In this document: positions 9,003 through 61,441 of the stretch, piece after piece | Layout: each line of letters begins with the position of its first letter | How positions within the stretch are numbered: the stretch's first letter is position 1 | DNA from: Parietichytrium sp. I65-24A | Taxonomy: Eukaryota; Sar; Bigyra; Thraustochytrida; Thraustochytriidae | Direction: 5' to 3' | Length of the DNA: 64,000 bases | Assembly: GCA_012862575.1 (NCBI GenBank) | Contig: BLSF01000107.1 | Location: forward strand, 21,370 to 85,369 | Translations under genes and position numbers: made by a program | Notes under the pieces: generated by a model | Told to the model about the DNA's origin: nothing | Databases searched by the model: none | What the model saw: the letters and a program-made list of their open reading frames with translations, nothing else

Positions 9003-9045
9003 TGCGAAGGCAAACGACAGCGAGCAGCTGTAACCCCTGGGGTGA
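9003..9045 (-). repeat. Dispersed repeat, reverse-oriented copy
   Basis: The reverse complement contains AGGGGTTACAGCTGCTCGCT followed by GTCGTTTGCCTTCGC. Also present at 10534-10566 in copy B. Confidence 0.75.
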
Positions 9046-10532
9046 GAAACAGCTGGATGAGTTTTTTTACCAGGAAAACTAGTAGAGCTGAGGTGGAAAC
9101 GAGAGTGGGCCTTGTCACGAGCACTACAGAAATGTATGGGACGGACTCCTTCCGCTAAAGAAGATTAAGACTGGTAAATCCGTTATCAAGGCACTTGTGA
9201 AATTCAAGTGTACGTGAACGATCGATTTCCTCGGTCACACCCTATGCGCAGGAGTACTTCAGCGTTGAAAGTGGTCCTTTACATAGAGGTCAACAAACTC
9301 AAAATTACGCCCAAGAGGGAAGGAACTCGATGACTACAGGGAGTGTGTGAAAACTGAAAAAAATAAATTGCTTAATTAATTGATTGTGTGCAGTTGTGGA
9401 CGATGGTTAGGTCATTTGCTACAGGAAGAGGTTGTTGGCCTAGAGTGGGACTGATTGTGAGAGCAACCAAGGGACAGAATTCTAAAACGTCTGCATGTTC
9501 AGTATAGCCCTGGCGAATGCATGCGCTTTCATTCTGGATTTTGATGGTGTCCGAATTGTCCAATCTTCAAATTTGTGCGTTATCAACTTACTGTACCGGT
9601 ACTATAATCAAGCCTATTGGAACAGCTCTTTGTTCCAGCGTGGGATTTTGGGCAACCCCAACTCTATGGATTAAAATAGAAAACTGGTGTAAGCCTTACA
9701 CACATCAGGGACACACGAAAAACTCGTTGAAAATCTATCTATAGAGAGGCTGATCTACGAGCCCATCAAACGAGCACAAGTGGCGCGGCGGACATGTGCA
9801 AGCCCGTAGGCAAATTGTGGACCAGGGAAAGATATAAAGGAACGGGTATGGCCAAATGACAGAACAGATCCAGTAAAGAGGCAGTGTATGAATGAAGCAG
9901 ACCCAAAACGACAAGGGGCGGCAGGGTGAGGTGAAAGAGCGCGAAAGCATTGCAGCATCCCGTGCGCGAACTCTGGAGACGAGAATGGCGACGGAGAGAG
10001 GAGAAGAAAAGATGGGCAAGTATGAGGAGAAATGGATTGCAGGCGAGAAAGCGAGGTTTTGGTGTGTGGACTCGTTGGACGAAGGCCTTGAGGCGATCGA
10101 CGATGGTAAAGAAGCCGTGTGGTGAGTTGCCGATTCTCAGACTGTTGGGGCGGAGGACGTCGGTTCTAATGGTGCTTTCCCTTCACACAGGTTTAATTCC
10201 GGATTCAAAGTGGGGCCAGATGGGGCGAAAAAGATCGCTGCAAAGCTCGAGAGAAATAAAACGCTTCTGAAGCTTGGGTAAGTCGGCCCTCACAAGTAGC
10301 AGTCTCGAGATCTTTTTGTCATGTTTCCGAGTCTAGAGTCACTTTGACACCGGTTTGGTGAAATTTTAGCACCCTAATAAATTTTCTCGGACTTGGTGGC
10401 TGACGATTCATGTCTTTTTGTAATGAAATAGTCTTCATGATAACGAGATTGGCGATGAAGGAGCATCAGCGATCGGTCGCGCGTTGGAGAAGAACACTGC
10501 GCTGACTACATTGTTGTACGTGTGATGACACC
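9012..10532 (+). repeat. LRR-gene 5' region, copy A (duplicated as copy B)
   Basis: About 1.52 kb of promoter-side DNA and the first three exons of an LRR gene. After the N at 10533 the sequence restarts at the equivalent of 9013 and runs in parallel to about 12050 (copy B) with scattered substitutions and small indels. Whether A and B are tandem paralogues or two haplotypes placed in series by the assembler cannot be told here. Confidence 0.85.
10012..10515 (+). CDS. LRR receptor-like gene, copy A, first three exons (truncated by assembly join)
   Basis: Exons 10012-10121, 10191-10277 and 10432-10515, all joined by phase-2 GT-AG introns. Exon 1 encodes an N-terminal cap (MGKYEEKW, then RFWCVDSLDEGLEAID and EAVW). 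Exon 2 is a degenerate LRR (FNSGFKVGPDGAKKIAAKL). Exon 3 is a 28-residue ribonuclease-inhibitor-type LRR (LHDNEIGDEGASAIGRALEKN). The ATG at 10012 is chosen because it is conserved in copy B (11554) and in the array gene at 55424; an upstream ATG at 9985 is lost in copy B. There is no signal peptide, so the product is probably intracellular. It stops inside the next intron at the N (10533), so the rest of the gene is unknown. The family resembles NLRC3/NOD3-type LRR proteins. Confidence 0.75.
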
Positions 10533-10533
10533 N
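10533..10533. other. Assembly join (single N)
   Basis: The preceding sequence ends within an LRR intron, while the following sequence is the upstream flank of a second copy of the same gene. The two sides are therefore not naturally continuous at single-base resolution. Confidence 0.85.
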
Positions 10534-11553
10534 GAACGACAGCGAGCAGCTGTAACCCCTGGGGTGAGAAACAGCTGGATGAGTTTTTTTACCAGGAAAA
10601 CTAGTAGAGCTGAGGTGGAAACGAGAGTGGGCCTTGTCACGAGCACTACAGAAATGTATGGGACGGACTCCTTCCGCTAAAGAAGATTAAGACTGGTAAA
10701 TCCGTTATCAAGGCACTTGTGAAATTCAAGTGTACGTGAACGATCGATTTCCTCGGTCACACCCTATGGGCAGGAGTGCTTCAGCGTTGAAAGTGATCCT
10801 TTACATAGAGGTCAACAAACTCACAAAATTACGCCCAAGAGGGAAGGAACTCGATGACTACAGGGGGTGTGTGAAAACTGAAAAAAATAAATTGCTTACT
10901 GTTAATTAATTGACTGTGTGCAGTTGTGGACGATGGTTTGGTCATTTGCTACAGTAAGAGGTTGTTGGCCTAGAGTGAGACTGATTGTGAGAGCAACCGA
11001 GGGACAGAATTCTAAAGAGTCTGCATGTTCAGTAAAGCCCTGGCGAATGCATGCGCTTTCATTCTGGATTCTGATGTATGTGTCCGAATTGTCCAATCTT
11101 CGAATTTGTGCGTTATGAACTTACTGTACCGGTACTGTAATCAAGCCTATTGGAACAGCTCTTTGTTCCAGCGTGGGATTTTGGGCAACCCCAACTCTAT
11201 GGATTAAAATAGAAAACTGGTGTAAGCCTTACACACGTCAGGGACACACGAAAAACTCATTGAAAATCTATCTATAGAGACTGATCTACGAGCTGATCAA
11301 ACGAGCACAAGTGGTGCGGCGGACATGTGCAAGCCCGTAGGCAAATTGTGGACCAGGGAAAGATTTAAAGGAACGGGTATGGCCAAATTACAGAACAGAT
11401 CCAGTAAAGAGGTAGTGTCGCGGAGGTTATGAATGAAGCAGACCCAAAAGAGACAAGGTGCGGCAGGGTGAGGTGAAAGACCGCGAAAGCATTGCAGCAT
11501 CCCGTGCGCGAACTCTGGAGACGAGCAGACCGACGGAGAAAGGAGAAGAAAAG

Positions 11554-12420
11554 ATGGGCAAGGATGAGGAGAAATGGTTTGCAGGCGAGAAAGTGAGGTT
11601 TTGGTGTGTGTATTCGGTGGACGAAGGCCTTGAGGCGATCGACGAAGGTAAAGAAGCCGTGTGGTGAGTTGCCGATTCTCAGACTGTTGGGGCGGAGGAC
11701 GTCGGTTCTAATGGTGCTTTCCCTTCACACAGGTTTAATTCCGGATTCAAAGTGGGGCCAGATGGGGCGAAAAGGATCATTGCAACGATCCAGGGAAGTA
11801 AAACGCTTCTGATGCTTGGGTAAGTCGGCCCTCACAAGTAGCAGTCTCGAGATCTATTGTGTCATGTTTCCGAGTCTAGAGTCACTTTGACACCGGTGTG
11901 GCGGGTACTAAACTTTCTCGGACTTGGTAGCTGACGACTTCATGTCTTTTTGTAATGAAATAGCCTTCAAAAAACCAAAATTGGCGCTGAAGGAGCATCA
12001 GCGATCGGTCGCGCGTTGGAGAAGAACACTGCGCTGACTACATTGTTGTACGTGTGACTTTGACACCGGTTTGGTGAAAAAAATTTGTTCTTTGCTGAAC
12101 TTTCTCGGATTTGGAGGCTGACGACTTCATGTCTTTTTGTAACGAAATAGTCTTTCAAACAATGGCATTGGCGCTGAAGGAGCATCAGCGATTGGTCGCG
12201 TATTGGAGAAGAACACTGCGCTGACTACATTGTTGTACGTGTGACTTTGACACGGTTTGGTGAAAAAGATTTGTTCCTTGCTGAACTTTCTCGGACTTGG
12301 TGGCTGACGACTTCATGCCTTTTTGTAATAAAATAGTCTTGGGGGTAACAGAATTGGCGATGAAGGAGCATCAGCGATCGGTCGCGCGTTGGAGAAGAAC
12401 ACTGCGCTGACTACATTGAC
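11554..12420 (+). CDS. LRR receptor-like gene, copy B, first five exons
   Basis: Exons 11554-11663, 11733-11819, 11964-12047, 12151-12234 and 12337-12420; all introns are phase 2. The N-terminal cap matches copy A with six amino-acid changes. Three exact 84-nt LRR exons follow; their variable starts read LQKTKIGAE, LSNNGIGAE and LGGNRIGDE, then a shared GASAIGR(A/V)LEKNTALTTL. The intron after exon 5 runs into the N at 12488, beyond which a Roc-COR-TIR coding segment begins on the same strand. The likely whole protein is cap-LRRn-Roc-COR-TIR, but the physical link crosses an assembly join and several LRR exons may be missing. Confidence 0.75.
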
Positions 12421-12487
12421 GTACGTGTGACTTTGACACGGGTTTGGTGAAAAAAATTTGTTCTTTGCTGAACTTTCTCGGACTTGG

Positions 12488-12488
12488 N
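12488..12488. other. Assembly join (single N) inside an LRR intron
   Basis: The bases before it are the standard LRR intron (CTTTCTCGGACTTGG). Those after it are coding sequence in the middle of a Roc GTPase domain, so an unknown length is missing. Confidence 0.85.
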
Positions 12489-14516
12489 GAGAATCGTGAA
12501 ATGGTGTTCTCAATCTGGGACTACGGCGGCCAACAAGTGTTTTACCTCCTTCACCATCTGTTCCTCACGCAATTCTCGGTGTACCTTGTTGTTTTTGACA
12601 TGTTCAAGATGAAGACAGACACAGAGGCTGAGTTGGACTGCGTGGAGTTCTGGCTGCGCTCAATCATGATGCATGCCGCAGACTGTCCAATTCTTTTGGT
12701 AGGAACCCGTTTGGACGTAATTTCATCTCCCTCCGATCACGCCGCGCTGGATAAACTCCTTGAACAGCGCCTCGAGAAGATCAAGACAGATCAGACGTGG
12801 AATGTGCAGCGCAACGTTGGTCAAGACATCTGGTTTCACCCCATCGACAACATGTCCGACGACCCCGATCGTGCGGCTGACCTGCGAAACAAGCTCATTG
12901 TACAGTGCACAAGCCTCGATATTCCTTGGAACAAGTTTTTACGGGAGCCTGTATCGATAAAATGGATTGTACTACTGGACGTTCTCATGGGGATCAAAGA
13001 CAGGTCTTACTTGCGCCTTGAGGAGGTCTATGTATTGGCACAAGAGCGCGCAAAGCTTAACGACCGTGACGAAGTGGACGCGATGCTCGAATACTTTCAT
13101 AATCTCGGACAGCTAATACACCTCACTCGCACGAAAGCCCTCAAGGAGTTTGTGGTGATTCAGCCACAGTGGCTGGTGGACCAACTTGCCAGAGTGCTCC
13201 GGGAGGAATTGCATCTCAAGGCTTCCAATTGGGAAAAGGTGAAGAACGAGGTGAAAGCACAGCTGCTTCAGACAGACTACGAAGAATTGTACGGTCATCG
13301 CTTGGACGACCATCCTGCCGCCAAAGGCAAAGGCGGAAAAGCTTCGGCAAGCTTACTAAAGCTGCTGTGGAGAGACGAGCCTTTCTACTTCTTGCTGAGT
13401 ATGATGAAGGAGATGATGTTGCTGTGTCAATGGCCGGGCGATAGTGAGCGATTTGTGGTGCCAAGCCTCTCGCCGCATGCTGACGATGATGTGCAGAGTG
13501 ACATATTGGCAAAGTTTGATAGCTCAGAGACCCTCGCCTTCCGGTTCCGCTTTAAGTACCTTCCGAAAGGCGTTTTTCACAGGTTCTTGTGCGGATACCT
13601 CCGCATCTTTGACGTGCAGGACAACTGGAAGACGAAGAAGTCCATCTGGAGCAATTTCGTGGAAACTCGCGTTAGCGGCACAGACATCCTTTTTTGCTGC
13701 GATGAGCGCACCAGCACGATCACAGTCAAGCTCAAGAATCCGGGCGGTGCAATCGAGGTTGCTTACTTGACTGGAGCTCTCATGGAGGTGTTCGATGGCC
13801 AGGACACGGTATTCATGTCAGACTCTTTGAAGCCAGAATTCGAGTGCGAGTCCGAGCTTGAGAGGGGTGTATGGGCAACGTACAAAGACGTTCGCAAAGG
13901 TTGCGAGAAGGACACCAACGTGTCATCAATCTCGGATTGCCGCGACCTCGTCGCTCGTAAGCATTTTGCGCACATGGACGTTCAAGGTACGTTTCGAAGT
14001 GTTCAAGTTGCCAACCTAGACAACAGACGACCTGTCGATAAGCAGTACGACGTGTTTCTATCTCACAACTGGGGGCCGGACGAGCTCAAGCGCGACAATC
14101 ATGCCCGCGTGCGAATTCTCGATAGGCAACTCCGAAGCAAAGGGCTCAAGGTCTTCTTCGACGAAAACGAGATGGTTGGCGACATCGACGCAGCGATGTC
14201 TCGTGCGATCGATAACTCCGCCGTCTTTATCGTATGCGCCACGAGGCGATACATGCAGAAAGTCAACAGCGGCAAAAGAGCAGACAACTGCTGGGCAGAG
14301 TTCCAGTACGCCGCAGCTCGGAATCGCCCCGTGGCCACGGTTGTGATGGAGCCCAAAATGACTTGTCAGGGAGACTGGGTAGGCAAGTTTGGACTTCGAA
14401 TGCCTTCCAACCTTTTCACGGAGATGACGGATGATAAAGATCTCTGCAGCGAAGCTCTTATCCACAAACTGATGGACCAAGTCGATGCCGTAAAGAGAGA
14501 ATCCGAATTAAACTAG
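12489..14516 (+). CDS. Roc-COR-TIR protein, 3' part of a ROCO-type receptor gene
   Basis: About 675 codons without introns, 5' end cut by the N at 12488. The first ~110 residues are the second half of a Roc (Ras of complex proteins) GTPase: G3 motif WDYGGQ and G4-like TRLD are present, while the P-loop (G1) must lie upstream of the join. A COR domain follows (MLEYFHNLGQLIHL, LKEFVVIQPQWLVDQLARVL, LLWRDEPFYFLL). The last ~140 residues are a TIR domain beginning DVFLSHNWG, with FDENEMVGDI and NCWAEFQYAAA; the Glu in CWAEF occupies the place of the conserved TIR Glu needed for NAD-cleaving activity in plant and SARM1 TIRs (family knowledge; activity here is inferred). Roc-COR units dimerise and switch with GTP. 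A TIR output on this scaffold suggests an immune or cell-death signalling role. Best interpreted as the C-terminal part of the LRR gene starting at 11554 or of a close paralogue. Confidence 0.85.
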   Translation, partial: ENREMVFSIWDYGGQQVFYLLHHLFLTQFSVYLVVFDMFKMKTDTEAELDCVEFWLRSIMMHAADCPILLVGTRLDVISSPSDHAALDKLLEQRLEKIKTDQTWNVQRNVGQDIWFHPIDNMSDDPDRAADLRNKLIVQCTSLDIPWNKFLREPVSIKWIVLLDVLMGIKDRSYLRLEEVYVLAQERAKLNDRDEVDAMLEYFHNLGQLIHLTRTKALKEFVVIQPQWLVDQLARVLREELHLKASNWEKVKNEVKAQLLQTDYEELYGHRLDDHPAAKGKGGKASASLLKLLWRDEPFYFLLSMMKEMMLLCQWPGDSERFVVPSLSPHADDDVQSDILAKFDSSETLAFRFRFKYLPKGVFHRFLCGYLRIFDVQDNWKTKKSIWSNFVETRVSGTDILFCCDERTSTITVKLKNPGGAIEVAYLTGALMEVFDGQDTVFMSDSLKPEFECESELERGVWATYKDVRKGCEKDTNVSSISDCRDLVARKHFAHMDVQGTFRSVQVANLDNRRPVDKQYDVFLSHNWGPDELKRDNHARVRILDRQLRSKGLKVFFDENEMVGDIDAAMSRAIDNSAVFIVCATRRYMQKVNSGKRADNCWAEFQYAAARNRPVATVVMEPKMTCQGDWVGKFGLRMPSNLFTEMTDDKDLCSEALIHKLMDQVDAVKRESELN

Positions 14517-14983
14517 CTGTTATTTCTTACTCTAAAATGCTTTTACGTGCTTGCTCTTGCCGAAAGTGCGTCCGAGAACGCTAGAATTTTTGGAGTACGT
14601 AAGGTTCATCATCACTTCCTCTGACTTTGTCTCGTTGTGCATCATGACGTATTTGAACGACCCTGGCAGGATGTTGTTGATCACCACGAGAAAAGACGAA
14701 ATTGTGTCACGAGATGTCAGAGAAGTCGCTCCGTCGTTCTGTACAACGAACAAGACCAGACATTGTCAGGAGATGAATGATTCACTGACTTATGGGTGTG
14801 AACGTAAGCGTCAGTTTCATCTTCCAAACTCAGAGTGCAGGCGGATAGAGCAGACGGGAGCAGAAAACTTGGTTTCTCCGCGAAGAGCGGCATCGTCGTC
14901 CGTTCGCATTCGTCCTGTTGCAAGAGTTGCAAGTGTTACGAGACATTCATACATGAGACTCGTAAACGCGAGGGCATCCAACT

Positions 14984-35238: not shown

Positions 35239-38200
35239 ATGTTCGGCATCCACGGCATCGCGGCGGTGCGCGAAGGGCAGTTCCAGAGCTTTATTCGTGA
35301 ATCGTTCGTCGGGCCCTCGCTGGCGGACAACTCGGTTCCCGCGGAGAGACTGGTGGACGACTTGACCTTCGCGGTTCTCTCGGTTCCCTTCGCGCTCTGG
35401 GAGACCGACCTGCGCCGCGTTGGGGACCAAAGAAGCGGCAAGGATGGGAAGAGCGCGGAAAGGGTCTTAGACGCGGGGCACGAGGGTGGAGATGATGCTG
35501 ATGATCATGATGTTGTTGTTGTTGATAAACATGATCATGATGGTGATAAACATGAACACGAACATGATCATGATGGTGATAAACATGAACATGAACATGA
35601 TCATGATGGTGATAAACATAAACATAAACATGATCATGATGGTGATAAACATGAACATGAACATGATCATGATAGTGATAAACATGATGATGATCATGAT
35701 GATCATGATGATGGTGATGAACATGATGATGATCTTGATGATGGTGATGCTGAGCGTGATGCGAAGAATGGGAGCGGAGACGGAGGTGCGGAGAAGGATG
35801 CGGCGAGTGATGCAGGTCTGCGCATCCGGAGGGAGGATCTGTCGGGCTCCAAGATGGTGGAATGGCTGCGTTTTGCGCGGGAAGCAAGTATGCCGTGGCT
35901 GCGCCGACTTGAAGCCAATGAGGACGGCGCGAGAGATGAATTTGCGAGCGAAATGCAAAAGAGTCAGCGGAAGAACCTGGCGCTGGGGGCTTACTTTGGT
36001 CTGTTGGTGGAGTTTTGGCTAAAGTCTTGCCCGGCGCTCCGGATTACGGATGTGCGCTCGGCCATAAAGGTCTCTGATGGACACAGCACTACCTTGGGGT
36101 CGCTCAAATTCGTCTGGAGGACGGAGGATGGCACCATGATGCATCTGGAATGCAGTGCCAAATTCTTTTGTAGATACAGCGATTACCTCGTAGGCCCACA
36201 CCTGTCGGAGACGCTCGATACGAGGTTTCGTTTCGCTCAGCGGAAGATTTCGGTTGCGCAGGTAGCGATGGGAAATTTGGAGAAGCTATATCCGGATGCC
36301 AAGTGCTTTGTTTCTGCGGCGATGATCCAAGGGTATGTCTTTTACGGCCTTCCTGGCGAGGAGGGAGAGATTGGAGAAACCTTTGACGTGGAACAGCATT
36401 TATCTGCCGAGAGAAAAATCGAACACTTTGGGGATGCGGACGCGGATATGTTTTCGTCTCAAGAAAAGCACTTGACCCACCTGATTCCAGGTCACCTGCG
36501 CCGATGGTACAGCCAAGACTTTGAGCGCGTGAAAGCGCAATTTTGCGCTGGCGTGGAGCAAGAGAGCGAGAGATGGTCAGTGCTTCCGAAACTGTACTGG
36601 ATGGCGCCTGTGCGATTCCCAGAGCGCCGTAAGTTGGACTATAGCTTGCCCATGCTCGACAGGGATGACATGACGAGACTGGTCAGCATGCACTTTGATA
36701 CAAAGCCGCGCCAGCGGAGGGAATACGCTTCTCGCCGCAGGCGATCGGGCCTCGTTCTTCTATCTCCGCTTTTGGTTGCTCAGCTCGTTCTGGAGACTCG
36801 CGAGAATGGCGAGCGGTTCTGGGTGGAAAGAACTCGGGGTTTTGTGCTTCCTACAGAATGGTCTCCGCTCGATCTCGTCGAAGCTGAAGACACCGGCTCA
36901 GGAGTCCCCAACGAACCGCCGCAGCTCTTGGTGTCTGAAGATTCGCGCGTGTGTTGCATTGAAGAAGGCATGGCTCATAAAAAGCCCAAGAGTTCGTCTC
37001 GTGCGAGGAGAGCCAAATCGTCAGAATCACCAGCTAGTGGCAAGGTAGCAGCTGTCCATTGTGAAGCTTGCGACAAGGTAAGCTTTTCAGAGGCAGTCGA
37101 GTCCGAAGACTGGACTGCGTTGGCCCAAAATTTGATCGACTCACTTCTTGGCGAGCCGCAGCCAGATGCGAGCAGTGATAATCTGGTGCATCGACGCGGC
37201 TTTATGTCTCACAAACACACGCAACACGTGTTCACGAGACTGACTGCCTTGCTTGAACAAAGTTGTGGCTCGGAGCAGCTCAGCAACGCTGCGATCAAAA
37301 GTTGTGAAATTGTCATGGATGTGTCCGCTGCTGAAATTATGTCGAAGGAGAGGAAGTCTATTTGCAGGCTGCTGTTGCGGTGTTGCGAGCAGGCAAATAT
37401 GCATGCTGTTGGGTTGAGTCTGTTGGAAACGCTTGCAAGCAATCCCGGGTTTCTCCCTTTCTTGCGAAACTGCATGAAGAAGGACTCCAGACAACTGCTA
37501 CATCTTATCTTATCGATGAAAAATTCGACGGCCACTTTGTCGGCGGCCGTTGCAGGCGCACCTGAAGACGACCGTGCATTCGCCAAAGACTACGTCCATA
37601 AGCTCCTTCGCTGCGTCGAGGCGTGGACAGAGGTCGAATCCAGTGTGGTAGTAGGGCTGCTCGCTTGTTTTGACATTCAGCTCGATTCTGAAGTCGTGAG
37701 ATCTGTCATGAGTGGACTAGTGGACAGCAGGAAGTTTGATTTAGCATTCGAAATTGTAGGGCTTCATCCGGGCGATGGGCTTGCTGCCGAACTTTTCAGG
37801 GCCCTCATCGTTTGCGGCAGAAACTACCGACACGCAGAATGGGCTCGGACCAAATTTGAACTGGAAGAAATTTATCCGTATCCTGTGGTGCATCGCCCGA
37901 GTCGCACAGAATCGCCTGCTTTGCTGGAGTCCAAATTTGATTGGATCATTGCCACGCAGGCCGAAACAATTCGAGAGAGCCAGGCTCGCTCGGCCCGAGA
38001 TGGCTGCCACCTCGGCCAAATTTCTCTTCTTTATGTCGACGACCTTGCAAGTCTGGAAGTTGCGATACAGCTTTTCGGCGACGCTTGTGCAAATGTTCGG
38101 GCAAACGGCGAATCGGCGCTCGTGGTAGGTATCGATGCAGAGTGGGGTCGATCAAGCCCGCCTGTGAGTACCGGACCATCTGAGCCTGAGCCTTTGAATT

Positions 38201-55423: not shown

Positions 55424-58102
55424 ATGGGAAGATACGAAGACCAGCAGTTTTGTGGCGCCAAGTCGAGATTCTGGTGCGTGAAGTCGTTGGGGGAAGGACT
55501 AAACGCTTTCGATCGAGAGGAGGCCGTGTGGTAAGTGAGGTGGGCTCAGCTGTGTGAAAGAGCCGGCCGAGTTGATTCACTGACGGCGCCTTTCCTTTAA
55601 CGCGCAGGTTTCATAATGGATGCGTGTGGCGAGATGGAGCGATGAAGGTCGCCATGACGCTCAACGGAAACAAAAAGCTTCGACGATTAGGGTAAGTCGT
55701 TCATGTGCTGTGATGCTGGGGCACCTGAGCTAGCGCGTGTGGCTTTGACACCGGTTTGGCGAAATGTCTTTGTCTTGTACCTTGCTAAACTTTCTCGGAC
55801 TTGGTGGCTGACGACTTCATGTCCTTTCGATGAACTAGGCTATCTCGGAATTACATTTCCCCTGCTGGAGCATCAGCAGTCGGTCGCGCGTTGGAGAAGA
55901 ACACTGTGTTAACCTCGTTGGAGTACGTGTGACTTTGACGACGATTTCTAGAAACTGTTTCGTACCTTGCTAGACTTTCTTGGACTTGATTGCTGACGGA
56001 TCCATGTTTTTTTCTCTTCTGCTGAAATAGTCTTTCGGGCGGCAACATTGGCTCTGCAGGAGCATCAGCGATTGGTCGCGCGTTGGAGAAGAACGTCACG
56101 CTGACTTGCTTAAAGTATGTGTAACTTTTAACACCGGCTCGGGGGAAAGTTCATTACCTTGCCAAATTTTCTTGGAGTTGGTTGCTGACGGTTTCGTGTT
56201 CTTTTGGTGGAATAGTCTTTCGAGCACCAACGTTTGCGATGAAGGGGCATCAGCGATCGGCCGTGCGCTGGAGAAGAACACTGCGGTAACTTTGTTGTAG
56301 TACGTGTGACTATGACACCAGGGTGGTGAGAAAATCATATCCTTGCTTTCTTTGTGGCTGACGATTTCATGTCTTTTGGTAACGGAATAGTTTTAATTCA
56401 AACAGCATTGGCGATGTAGGAGCATCATCGATCGGTCGCGCTCTGGAGAAGAACACTGTGCTGACAATTTTGTCGTACGTGTGACGTTTACACTGGTTTG
56501 GTAAAAAGATTTAGTAGAGTGCTAAATCCTCTCGGATCTGGTGGCTGACGAGGTTTGTGTCTTTCTGTAATAAAATAGTCTTCAATTTAATTACATCGGC
56601 AACAAAGGAGCATCGGCGATCGGCCACGCGCTTGAGAAGAACACCGCACTGACTTCATTGTAGTATGTGTGACGTTCAAACCGATTTGGTGAACTTTTTC
56701 GGTCTTGGTGGCTAACCTCTCCCCGCTTCTTCGATGGCATAGTCTTTATTACAACAACATCAACCATGAAGGAGCATCAGCAATTGGCTGCGCGCTGGAG
56801 AAGAACACAGCGTTGACTTTGTTGGAGTACGTGTGGCTTTGACACCGGTTCGGGGGGAAAGTCAATATCTTGGACTTAGTGGCTGACGATTTCGTGTCGT
56901 GTTGTTTTGGTGGAATAGACTTGAACGTAATCTCATCCACGCTGAAGGAGCAGCAGCGATCGGCCGTGCGCTGGAGAAGAAAGCTGCGCTGACTTGCTTG
57001 AAGTACGTGTGTTTCTGACACCGGTTTGGTGACAAAAGTTCAGCACCGTGTTAGACTTTCTCCTCGATCTCTGTGGCTGACGAATCCATGTCTTCTTGGC
57101 GGAATAGTCTTTGTGAGAGTGGGATCGGCGACAAAGGAGCATCAGCAATCGGTCGCGCATTGGAGAAAAACACTGCGCTGACTACGTTGGAGTACGTATG
57201 ACTCGCACGCTGGTTTGCCGAAATCGTTCGGAACCTTTGCTAGATCTTCTCGTTTTTGGTTGACAAGTTCGCGTTTTTTTTTCAAACGAAATAGTCTTGT
57301 TGGGAATAAATGTGGCAGTGAAGGAGCATCAGTAATTGGTCGTGCGCTAGAAATGAATACTGCGCTCACTTCGTTGAAGTACGTGTGACTTTGACAATGG
57401 GTTGGTAAAAATATTTCCTTGCTTTCTTTGTGGCTGACGATTTCATGTCTTCTGGTAACGGAATAGTTTTGGCGTAAACAGCATTGACGGTGAAGGAGTA
57501 TCAGCAATCGGTCGTGCCCTAGAAACGAATACTGCGCTCACTTCGTTGAGGTACGTGTGACTTCGACACCGGGTTGGTGAAAATATTATTTTCTTGCTTT
57601 CTTTGCGGCTGACGATGTCATGTCTTTCTTGTGAAAAGTCTTGCGTGGAATGGCGCTGGCGCTGAAGGGGCATCAACGATCGGTCGCGTGTTGGAGAAGA
57701 GCACCGCGCTGAATGAGTTGAAGTACGTGTGACGTTTGAACCGGCTCGCTGAAACGTGTAGTACCGTACTAAACTTTTCTTGGACTTGGTAACTCATGTC
57801 TGGTACCGGTAACTTATGTCTTTTTGAAATGCAATAGTCTTGCGGGAAACAGCATTGGCGCTGAAGGAGCGTCAGCGATCGGTCGCGCGTTGGAGAAAAA
57901 CACTGCGCTGACTAAATTGAAGTATGTGTGACTGTGACACCGGTTGGTAAAATGGTACCTTGCTAGACCTTCTTGGACTTGGTGGTTGACGATTTCATAT
58001 CTCTCTGCAATCGACTAGTCTTTCTGAGAATGGCATTGGCGCTGGAGGAGCATCAGCGATCGGCAGCGGGTTGGAGAAAAACACGACGCTGACTACGTTG
58101 GA
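55424..58102 (+). CDS. LRR-array gene: cap exons plus 13 one-exon LRR units (3' end lost)
   Basis: Fifteen exons, all with phase-2 junctions: 55424-55530, 55608-55691, then 84-nt exons starting at 55839, 56031, 56216, 56391, 56579, 56743, 56919, 57108, 57295, 57467, 57639, 57838 and 58019. Exon 1 encodes the same N-terminal cap as at 10012/11554 (MGRYEDQQF ... RFWCVKSLGEGL ... EAVW). Exon 2 is a degenerate LRR. Each following exon encodes one 28-residue RI-type LRR with consensus LxxNxIGxEGASAIGRALEKNTALTxLx; residues 2, 3, 5 and 8 vary most. Introns (about 80-120 nt) also share GTACGTGTGACTTTGACACCGG at the donor and GGTGGCTGACGA(T/C)TTCATGTCTTTT before the acceptor. There is no stop within the array. 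The gene runs into the N at 58122, so downstream domains are unknown; Roc-COR-TIR is a reasonable expectation by analogy with 12489-14516. Confidence 0.8.
55839..58102 (+). repeat. Tandem exon-plus-intron units, 13 copies, mean period about 182 bp
   Basis: Exon parts are all exactly 84 nt; intron parts vary from about 80 to 116 nt. The exon 3' half (GAAGGAGCATCAGCGATCGG, then CGCGCGTTGGAGAAGAACACT) is far more conserved than the 5' quarter. Confidence 0.95.
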
Positions 58103-59168: not shown

Positions 59169-59264
59169 GAAAGTGTCTGTAACCCGAACCCAGACTCGAT
59201 TCGAAAATGCATGGGGCTATTTTGGCATAGCAGAGACTTGGTTGAGTACCTCAACCAAGCCCCG

Positions 59265-59907
59265 ATTTTACCCCTTTTACTGACCAGTGACTAGACTTAT
59301 GTGTACCATGGTAGGTACGTACTTGATCAATCTCAATGATTGGCAAGAAATTTCACAGTCAGTGGAATAGCATAGGCTCTGAATCAGGATCTGGCACGCG
59401 CGATTTGATGACGAAGTCACGACTTCCGAGTTTGGTTACTAGAAAGAGCGTAGCTGATTTTGCAATTTGCAATTTGCAATTTGCAATTGGCGACACAAGC
59501 CAGGAAGATCCAGCTAGTAGTAGCTAACCTAACCTAATGCTAGCTAGAGTAGTAAGTAGTAGAGGAAGAGAAGGTGCACTCTCCTTCTTCTCCTTAGGTT
59601 AGAAAAGAAAATCACAAAAAAAAGGAAGTGATTGGAGCAGATAGCTTTAGTTATTGCGCAGGGGAGCTCCTTTGCGCATCTGCAAAGAAGCTCACCGTCT
59701 CCCCTATCCGGGCGGTAATGTGCTTGATCCTTGTGACATCGCACACTTTCCTCACCTCACTTCCCTCACATGGGGAATTCAATCCACAAGATCGCCATCA
59801 ACGTCATCACCAAGTGGCCTCTTCCTTTGTAAGCTCCCTTTACTGTACGATAAAATATGCATGATCGTACAACTTTGGGGCGAAAATTGATGTCAGCTAT
59901 TGTCAGC
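59265..59907. repeat. ~640-bp direct repeat, copy 1
   Basis: Nearly identical to 60043-60694, with small indels (for example GCACGCACCTGCGT inserted in copy 2). Copy 1 ends exactly at the N (59908). Confidence 0.85.
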
Positions 59908-59908: not shown

Positions 59909-60042
59909 TGCACTCTATACACCAATTAAGCCTAACTACAGGATACACAAGGACTAGTCCCTTGTTCTACAGAGCTCCTTGCTCGTTAGTACTCCTATAC
60001 TAGCTAGCCAGCTGTAAACCTACTCGAACTCTCTCCTCCCCC

Positions 60043-60694
60043 ATTTTACCCCTTTTACTGACCAGTGACTAAACTTATGTGTACCATGGTAGGTACGTAC
60101 AGTTTGATCAATCTCAATGATTGGCAAGAAATTTCACAGTCAGTGGAATAGCATAGGCTCTGAATCAGGATCTGGCACGCGCGATTTGATGACGAAGTCA
60201 CGACTTCCGAGTTTGGTTAGAGCGTAGCTGATTTTTGCAATTTGCAATTTGCAATTTGCAATTGGCAACACAAGCCAGGAAGATCCAGCTAGTAGTAGCT
60301 AACCTAACCTAAGGCTAGCTAGAGTAGTAAGTAGTAGAGGAAGAGAAGGTGCACGCACCTGCGTGCACTCACTCTCCTCCTTCTTCTTCTTAGGTTAGAA
60401 AAGAAAATCACATAAAAAAGAAAGTGATTGGAGCAGATAGCTTTAGTTATTGCAGGGGAGCTCCTTTGCGCATCTGCAAAGAAGCTCACCGTCTCCCCTA
60501 TCCGGGCGGTAATGTGCTTGATCCTTGTGACATCGCACACTTTCCTCACCTCGCTTCCCTCACATGGGGAATTCAATCCACAAGATCGCCATCAACGTCA
60601 TCACCAAGTGGCCTCTTCCTTTGTAAGCTCCCTTTACTGTACGATAAAATATGCATGATCGAACAACTTTGGGGCGGAAATTGATGTCAGCTAT
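60043..60694. repeat. ~640-bp direct repeat, copy 2
   Basis: Counterpart of 59265-59907; continues beyond the point where copy 1 is cut. Confidence 0.85.
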
Positions 60695-60875
60695 TGTCAG
60701 CTTTTCAGACTTGCAGGTGCACATGATGCGTGTGCGTCAGGCTCCAGGGGCTCGTAGAGAGCGAAACAGATCGAAAGGAAGCACGTGGGACCACAGACGG
60801 AAGAGATCAAATGATCGCGAGGCTCACGCGTGGCAGTCTTCTTTCTTCGGTTGCAATGAAAATTCATACCGGCNG

Positions 60876-60876
60876 G
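60876..60876. other. Assembly join (single N) with unmerged overlap
   Basis: About 200 bp ending at 60875 (from 60671) is repeated without visible differences immediately after the N, as expected when two overlapping contigs were placed end to end. Confidence 0.9.
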
Positions 60877-61441
60877 GGCGGAAATTGATGTCAGCTATTG
60901 TCAGCTTTTCAGACTTGCAGGTGCACATGATGCGTGTGCGTCAGGCTCCAGGGGCTCGTAGAGAGCGAAACAGATCGAAAGGAAGCACGTGGGACCACAG
61001 ACGGAAGAGATCAAATGATCGCGAGGCTCACGCGTGGCAGTCTTCTTTCTTCGGTTGCAATGAAAATTCATACCGGCAAGGCCCAACCTCGTAATGTGGT
61101 ACGTTTTCACTGGTCTCTACGAACTAATAATTTTACCAGTATAGTTGAATTAACAGAGCAGTCAAGTCAAATCTGTCGTTTGGAATCGCTTGTCGGTTGA
61201 TCGGAGAGCGGAAAGGCAGGAAGAAGAGGGAAAGAGGGAGGAGGGAGGGCGACTCGAAGACGATTCTCTCAGCAACCAGATCAAAAATTTACCTAGGAGT
61301 TTGGCCAAACCAAGAGGCAGAGTTGCGCGAAATCCTTCACTAACTGTAAATTGTTCTTACAGTCAGTGATGGAATCTCTTCGAAACTGGAGGCTGGGAGT
61401 AAATCTCTTCGAATCTGGACGGTGGTAAGTATGTAAACTTC

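Follow-up and report, generated by a model that had tools for sequence, protein, structure and literature searches.

Two adjacent copies of an LRR gene module, A and B, in which exons differ at amino-acid-changing bases beside an identical intron, raise the question of which process shapes the locus: positive selection, targeted diversification or something else. The window, that is, the whole stretch of DNA analysed (64,000 nt), belongs to contig C107, one of the 172 contigs of a 42.5-Mb genome. Among the hits listed for the condensin gene, Thraustochytrium sp. LLF1b is closest (49% identity), so that the host is probably a labyrinthulomycete-like protist; it is also probably diploid. The locus belongs to an expanded family of LRR-ROC-COR-TIR receptors. 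We find that the pattern is probably explained by diversifying selection acting together with recombination, which homogenises the repeat unit around old, exchanged recognition blocks, at a receptor locus where A and B are most likely haplotypes.

The gene consists of exon 1 (110 nt), exon 2 (87 nt), a series of 84-nt one-repeat LRR exons, a gap, ROC-COR and TIR, in this order and on the forward strand, as are all features located below. Each 28-residue LRR is encoded by one 84-nt exon between phase-2 introns, and these exons form tandem arrays. Copy A occupies the end of the left contig (9013-10532, delimited by alignment and dovetail) and contains the 5' flank and exons 1-3, namely exon 1 (10012-10121), followed by the phase-2 intron 1 (10122-10190, 69 nt), exon 2 (10191-10277), intron 2 (10278-10431) and exon 3 (10432-10515), the first 84-nt LRR exon. 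Copy B (10534-12487, delimited likewise) begins on the next contig, after the single N at 10533 that marks the A/B contig junction, and carries the 5' flank and exons 1-5, with exon 1 at 11554-11663, intron 1 at 11664-11732, exon 2 at 11733-11819, intron 2 at 11820-11963 and the 84-nt LRR exons 3, 4 and 5 at 11964-12047, 12151-12234 and 12337-12420. The ATG at 10012 in A and 11554 in B was taken as the start; it is common to 11 of 11 aligned module copies, and length changes downstream of it come in threes. In the repeat notation L-T-x4-L-x5-L-x1-x2-N-x3-I, x1-x5 denote the variable codons. Specifically, the hypervariable block of exon 3 lies at 10436-10447 in A and 11968-11979 in B, x4 at 10508-10510 and 12040-12042, and x5 at 10514-10515 and 12046-12047, respectively.

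A further single N at 12488, where no dovetail between contig ends was found, conceals the start of ROC and probably more LRR exons. The open frame behind it (12492-14516) encodes ROC, COR and TIR, with profile matches above the cut-offs for Roc (5.4e-11), COR-A (9.9e-13) and TIR_2 (1.3e-11, at 14052-14357); because of the gap, ROC is partial and the match to the Roc profile begins only at position 55 of 119. ROC, as far as it is present, and COR stand in tandem, as in the ROCO family. The spliced LRR part matches, at the sequence level, the LRR_6 profile and ribonuclease-inhibitor-like chains of solved structure. No PDB sequence matched this TIR at E 0.1, and a search of the window with Rfam at gathering thresholds gave no match. 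Genome-wide, COR occurs at 11 places, two of which (both on C35) are probably haplotypes; TIR lies in the same frame as COR in nine of the 11, one of them (C4) with an in-frame TGA, and LRR units precede COR in the same orientation at six loci (C107, C12, C75, C35, C10 and C4). A second array of the same family in the window holds 13 clean 84-nt LRR exons (55839-58102).

Several side observations were made on the way. TIR_2 has 38 matches genome-wide, 29 of them outside COR-bearing frames. A long purine-rich tandem repeat with 10/15-bp spacing starts at 14977, about 460 bp past the stop of the TIR frame, and a short tandem repeat at 35492-35776, Asp/His-rich by eye, lies inside a frame with DUF1853 and 3'-5' exonuclease domains. 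On several contigs (e.g. C8, C21, C36, C59, C73, C91 and C169) LRR units appear often to be near contig ends or gaps; the assembly may be interrupted by the LRR arrays, or the arrays may have a subtelomeric location.

The first-pass annotation had treated A and B as separate copies, an assumption that most likely does not hold. A and B share a suffix-prefix (dovetail) overlap of 1,537 bp at 93.4% identity across the one-N gap, in which the suffix of the left contig matches the prefix of the right contig to within 7 and 2 bases of their ends. This arrangement strongly suggests that A and B are two haplotypes of one locus. Among the 24 gaps that could be tested for contig-end overlap in the fetched pieces, 6, including the A/B junction, show dovetails of at least 93% identity and at least 200 bp; 7 show weaker dovetails explicable by array similarity, and 11 show none. 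Overlaps of this kind are also found outside LRR sequence. Window positions 60671-60873 and 60875-61077 are an exact 203-bp duplicate (100%) flanking the one-N gap at 60874, an assembly artefact left by an unmerged contig overlap; nearby, 59260-59907 and 60038-60701 probably represent another, incomplete contig overlap. On C35, a dovetail of 97.9% over 1,630 bp lies in COR-TIR coding sequence. This haplotype-like pair differs at 20/380 silent sites (pS 5.3%) and 15/1249 replacement sites (pN 1.2%), and the resulting ratio of 0.23 indicates that selection differs by domain. Both this pS and the A/B noncoding difference of 3.3% fit heterozygosity. A second haplotype-like LRR pair, on C75, spans a 489-N gap; its first ~370 bp are identical, its 5' flank is indel-rich, its intron 1 differs at 1/69 bases, and its changes, silent ones included, cluster at the 5' end of the LRR exons. 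The C75 junction is also compatible with a real tandem, and A and B do sit next to each other on one scaffold, so that true tandem paralogy of A and B keeps some plausibility; given the nearly flush contig ends and the overlaps at other one-N gaps of the scaffold and the genome, we regard it as unlikely.

Alignment of A and B confirmed the base counts reported at first: 7/110 differences in exon 1, 0/69 in intron 1 and 9/87 in exon 2. Intron 2 differs at 8/142 positions plus 3 gaps. All 14 changed codons of exons 1 and 2 alter the amino acid, as had been claimed, but not every base change is a replacement, for NG86 gives N 15 and S 1. Likewise, the 8/84 differences of exon 3 all fall in its first 24 nt, but the reported split into 7 replacement changes and 1 silent change becomes N 6 and S 2. 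Codons hit twice contain a silent step, as in GAC to TAT (exon 1) and GAG to AAA (exon 3). With exons 1-3 pooled, NG86 gives N 21 and S 3 (P = 0.18 against neutrality). At the A/B noncoding rate of 40/1208, zero changes in 69 bp have a probability of 0.10, and the unchanged intron 1, taken alone, is weak evidence. Coding differences (24/281) exceed noncoding ones with P = 4e-4, or P = 0.04 when the comparison is with the two introns. The evidence for selection from this pair alone is thus modest, and the pattern is far stronger across 230 LRR exons genome-wide.

For exons 1 and 2, comparison of seven copies (21 pairs pooled, two of them probably haplotypes) gives pN 0.160, pS 0.144 and an intron divergence of 0.117. 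These near-equal values point to low constraint and do not demonstrate selection; change in these exons is relaxed or weakly diversifying. In intron 1, the 3' half seems to be conserved even across two subfamilies whose exon 1 sequences differ more, which could reflect either homogenisation or a functional element.

Next, we examined the 84-nt LRR exons across the genome. A search of 200,779 fetched bases, which cover a portion of the genome, with an nhmmer profile yielded 280 LRR units, of which the 230 with an exon of exactly 84 nt were kept and the 50 of other aligned lengths dropped. Among the 230 exons, all codon positions are diverse at x1-x3 (0.54-0.74), x4 (0.50-0.64) and x5 (0.40-0.60). 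The rest of the exon has a diversity of at most 0.28, except for column 45 (0.49), a silent site at the third base of the Asn codon that separates x2 from x3, and column 56 (0.58), a D/A site; the flanking intron columns stay below 0.33, except for columns 7 (0.56) and 22 (0.42). Four to five presumably exposed codons are therefore near saturation in a unit of which most, introns included, is little different. The boundaries of the variable region follow codons, and 207 of the 230 units carry distinct twelve-base blocks. At x1-x3, Trp, Phe, Ser and Gln are in excess and Pro, Ala and Ile are depleted, and no stop occurs at x1-x4, as against about 68 expected from base frequencies. The base composition of the variable codons in these exons shows no single-base mutator signature; all base types occur at variable positions, unlike the adenine-directed change of a diversity-generating retroelement. 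By analogy with the LRR consensus and with a brown-algal study (PMC11378527), x1-x5 would lie on the concave, exposed face.

Because a few units may be present twice where haplotypes overlap, per-codon rates were derived from neighbour pairs on different contigs. Among 180 such nearest-neighbour pairs, pN at x1-x4 exceeds the silent rate measured in the constant codons 4.8-6.8 fold; the constant codons are themselves under purifying selection (pN/pS 0.43). A naive dN/dS over the family comes to about 1 in the hypervariable codons, the outcome that the first-pass annotation had named as counting against its own reading, because silent differences are equally high there; measured against the constant silent rate, the excess of replacement stands. 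In neutral-index bins of at least 0.04, x1-x4 have pS 0.63-0.70 and pN 0.61-0.67, compared with a constant pS of 0.07-0.30. In the 84 youngest pairs (neutral index below 0.04), pN/pS at x1-x4 is 0.105/0.133, 0.494/0.647 and 0.511/0.463, so that pN is not clearly above pS, which simple positive selection does not predict. Silent differences in the block, by NG86, are elevated 5-15 fold in neighbour pairs, a figure inflated by codons hit more than once. A rate ratio of at least 50 calculated from the closest pairs was dropped, as these pairs form a low tail and several are identical ones at contig overlaps.

The elevated silent differences bring up the possibility of targeted mutation, in which hypermutation or templated diversification would alter the 12-bp block plus x4 and x5 and selection would only filter the products. 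High diversity at all three codon positions of x1-x4, the silent excess of the block and the youngest pairs would suit such a process, and so would column 45, which relative to its flanks has a ratio of 1.07 and is as unlinked from them as the variable codons (174/204 nearest-neighbour pairs, distance 0.02-0.12), when the other third positions listed give 0.25-0.67 in the same pairs. This contrast may partly reflect a comparison of a common, old variant with rarer silent sites, since the other third-position variants are rarer, hence younger, and their ratio is in part lowered by this. The ratio at column 45 therefore suggests that part of the silent excess is probably age, the block having an older, separate genealogy. 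At the Leu that separates x4 from x5, silent sites show no such elevation, which speaks against targeted mutation and also means that the argument for an older block rests mainly on the 5' block.

Linkage within the block bears directly on this alternative. In 75 K/E codons, the third base of x3 is linked to the choice of AAT or AAC, AAT going with A and AAC with G (36, 2, 12, 25; P = 8e-9), whereas K versus E is unlinked (P = 1.0). In view of the possible duplication of units by haplotype overlaps, the tests were repeated on thinned sets. With 50 units on 21 contigs, the silent linkage persists (P = 3e-5) and K versus E stays unlinked (P = 0.78); when each contig contributes a single unit, the silent linkage has a median P of 0.018. 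Across codons, third positions keep their mutual linkage (z 3.2-8.7), while first positions have lost it (0.3-0.7) and second positions mostly so (0.6-3.9, with one case of z 3.9). Of five silent pairs with the same spacing in the constant codons, one is linked (P = 0.003) and four are not. Since mutation is blind to codon position, silent-silent linkage that is kept where the amino acid is unlinked favours selection over targeted mutation. Hypermutation as the cause of the ratio at column 45 was rejected after the linkage test; CpG deamination there was also considered and rejected, for C is somewhat rarer before G, but the linkage is strongest with columns 48, 39 and 42. Together with the codon-bound limits of the variable region and the lack of an adenine-only signature in its base composition, these data make targeted mutation quite improbable; as a mutational mechanism it is unsupported, and hypermutation is not needed. 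Diversification of the exposed recognition face, as first proposed, is thus upheld by the genome-wide rates, and the targeted mechanism proposed with it is not, silent linkage having survived in the block.

Units also appear to exchange sequence. Identical 12-mers on different contigs form 16 pairs (10 blocks), against about one expected, and their upstream introns are 9-22% and downstream introns 11-27% diverged, where the background has a median of 17%; in upstream intron divergence, three of the 16 fall below the 5% quantile. Furthermore, there are 11 mosaic unit pairs, nine of them free of N in the 100-bp flanks. Shared blocks and mosaic units point to exchange; some of the shared blocks may have arisen by convergence on common combinations of residues. 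Positive selection on point mutations without any exchange between units would account for the high replacement rate at exposed codons and for amino acids that are scrambled relative to silent sites; we nevertheless consider it very doubtful, because selection on point mutations acting by itself would need an omega of 20-50 relative to the unit-wide silent rate, and because the turnover at the silent column 45, the identical blocks beside diverged upstream introns and the mosaic units all speak against it. There is a slim chance that, beside selection, a dedicated process renews the 12-bp block and the two 3' codons, by codon-scale short-tract conversion or a localised mutator; if so, a protist would possess a receptor repertoire, germline or even clonal, that feeds into TIR signalling. 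That the differences stem from errors of sequencing or assembly or from the decay of pseudogenes, as a draft with many gaps inside its arrays might suggest, is scarcely credible, as none of the 230 exons contains a stop, all have an AG acceptor and a GT (222) or GC (8) donor, the constant codons are under purifying selection, and the changes fall in the same codons genome-wide.

We therefore return to diversifying selection combined with homogenising recombination as the probable explanation. Point mutations in the presumably exposed codons would be retained by diversifying selection, and recombination would reshuffle the variants across hundreds of near-identical units, through unequal crossing-over and presumably short-tract conversion. 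The same recombination would homogenise the introns and the constant parts of the exon, leaving a recognition block that predates its flanks and is not coupled to them. Judged by architecture and variability, the product is likely to act inside the cell as a receptor of immune or self/non-self type, in which a ligand bound to the variable face might switch ROC-COR and release TIR signalling. Where introns and constant exon parts are homogenised, intron-versus-exon contrasts or a naive dN/dS mis-state selection. The 230 clean exons allow selection, homogenisation and mutation to be separated base by base.

Variable concave LRR residues are known from the lamprey VLRs, and old recognition codons beside homogenised introns from MHC exon 2; the signalling domains of both are unrelated to those found here, and nothing in the present data points to somatic assembly. 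Brown-algal LRR-ROCO genes were reportedly treated by Zambounis in 2012.

The exon-shuffled LRR-ROCO family of brown algae appears to be the closest known kind (PMC11378527). Both share the LRR-ROC-COR architecture, one LRR per exon and phase-2 introns; here, one-repeat exons between phase-2 introns lie upstream of ROC-COR at the six loci named above. The brown-algal genes undergo exon shuffling and have their selected sites on the concave face, comparable to the variable face in our case. However, their exons are 72 bp long and they are plain LRR-ROCO genes, whereas the present exons measure 84 bp (28 residues, ribonuclease-inhibitor type) in 230 exons, themselves selected for that length, and are followed by a C-terminal TIR. 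The hosts differ as well, and the likeness is one of architecture. In the same source, Schizochytrium aggregatum, among others, is credited with at most four ROCO copies, and its main text uses none of the words 'silent', 'synonymous', 'gene conversion' and 'alleles'. Tetrahymena LRR genes resemble the present ones in that LRR exons of one length, separated by phase-2 introns, form tandem arrays, and unequal crossing-over and ectopic recombination have been proposed for them, but their exons are 90 bp long and the genes number in the thousands; 'hypervariable' and 'positive selection' are absent from the main text of that study (PMC6564038). At the APL1 LRR immune locus of Anopheles funestus, high replacement diversity is ascribed to gene conversion between paralogues (PMC9222773), an exchange between paralogous genes that here would take the form of exchange among one-repeat exons. 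Among the literature matches listed, no paper deals with such genes in labyrinthulomycetes. The labyrinthulomycete-like host, the 84-bp exons and the TIR tail are new here, and they suggest that exon-modular hypervariable LRR-ROCO receptors, known from multicellular brown algae, also exist, fused to TIR, in a labyrinthulomycete-like protist.
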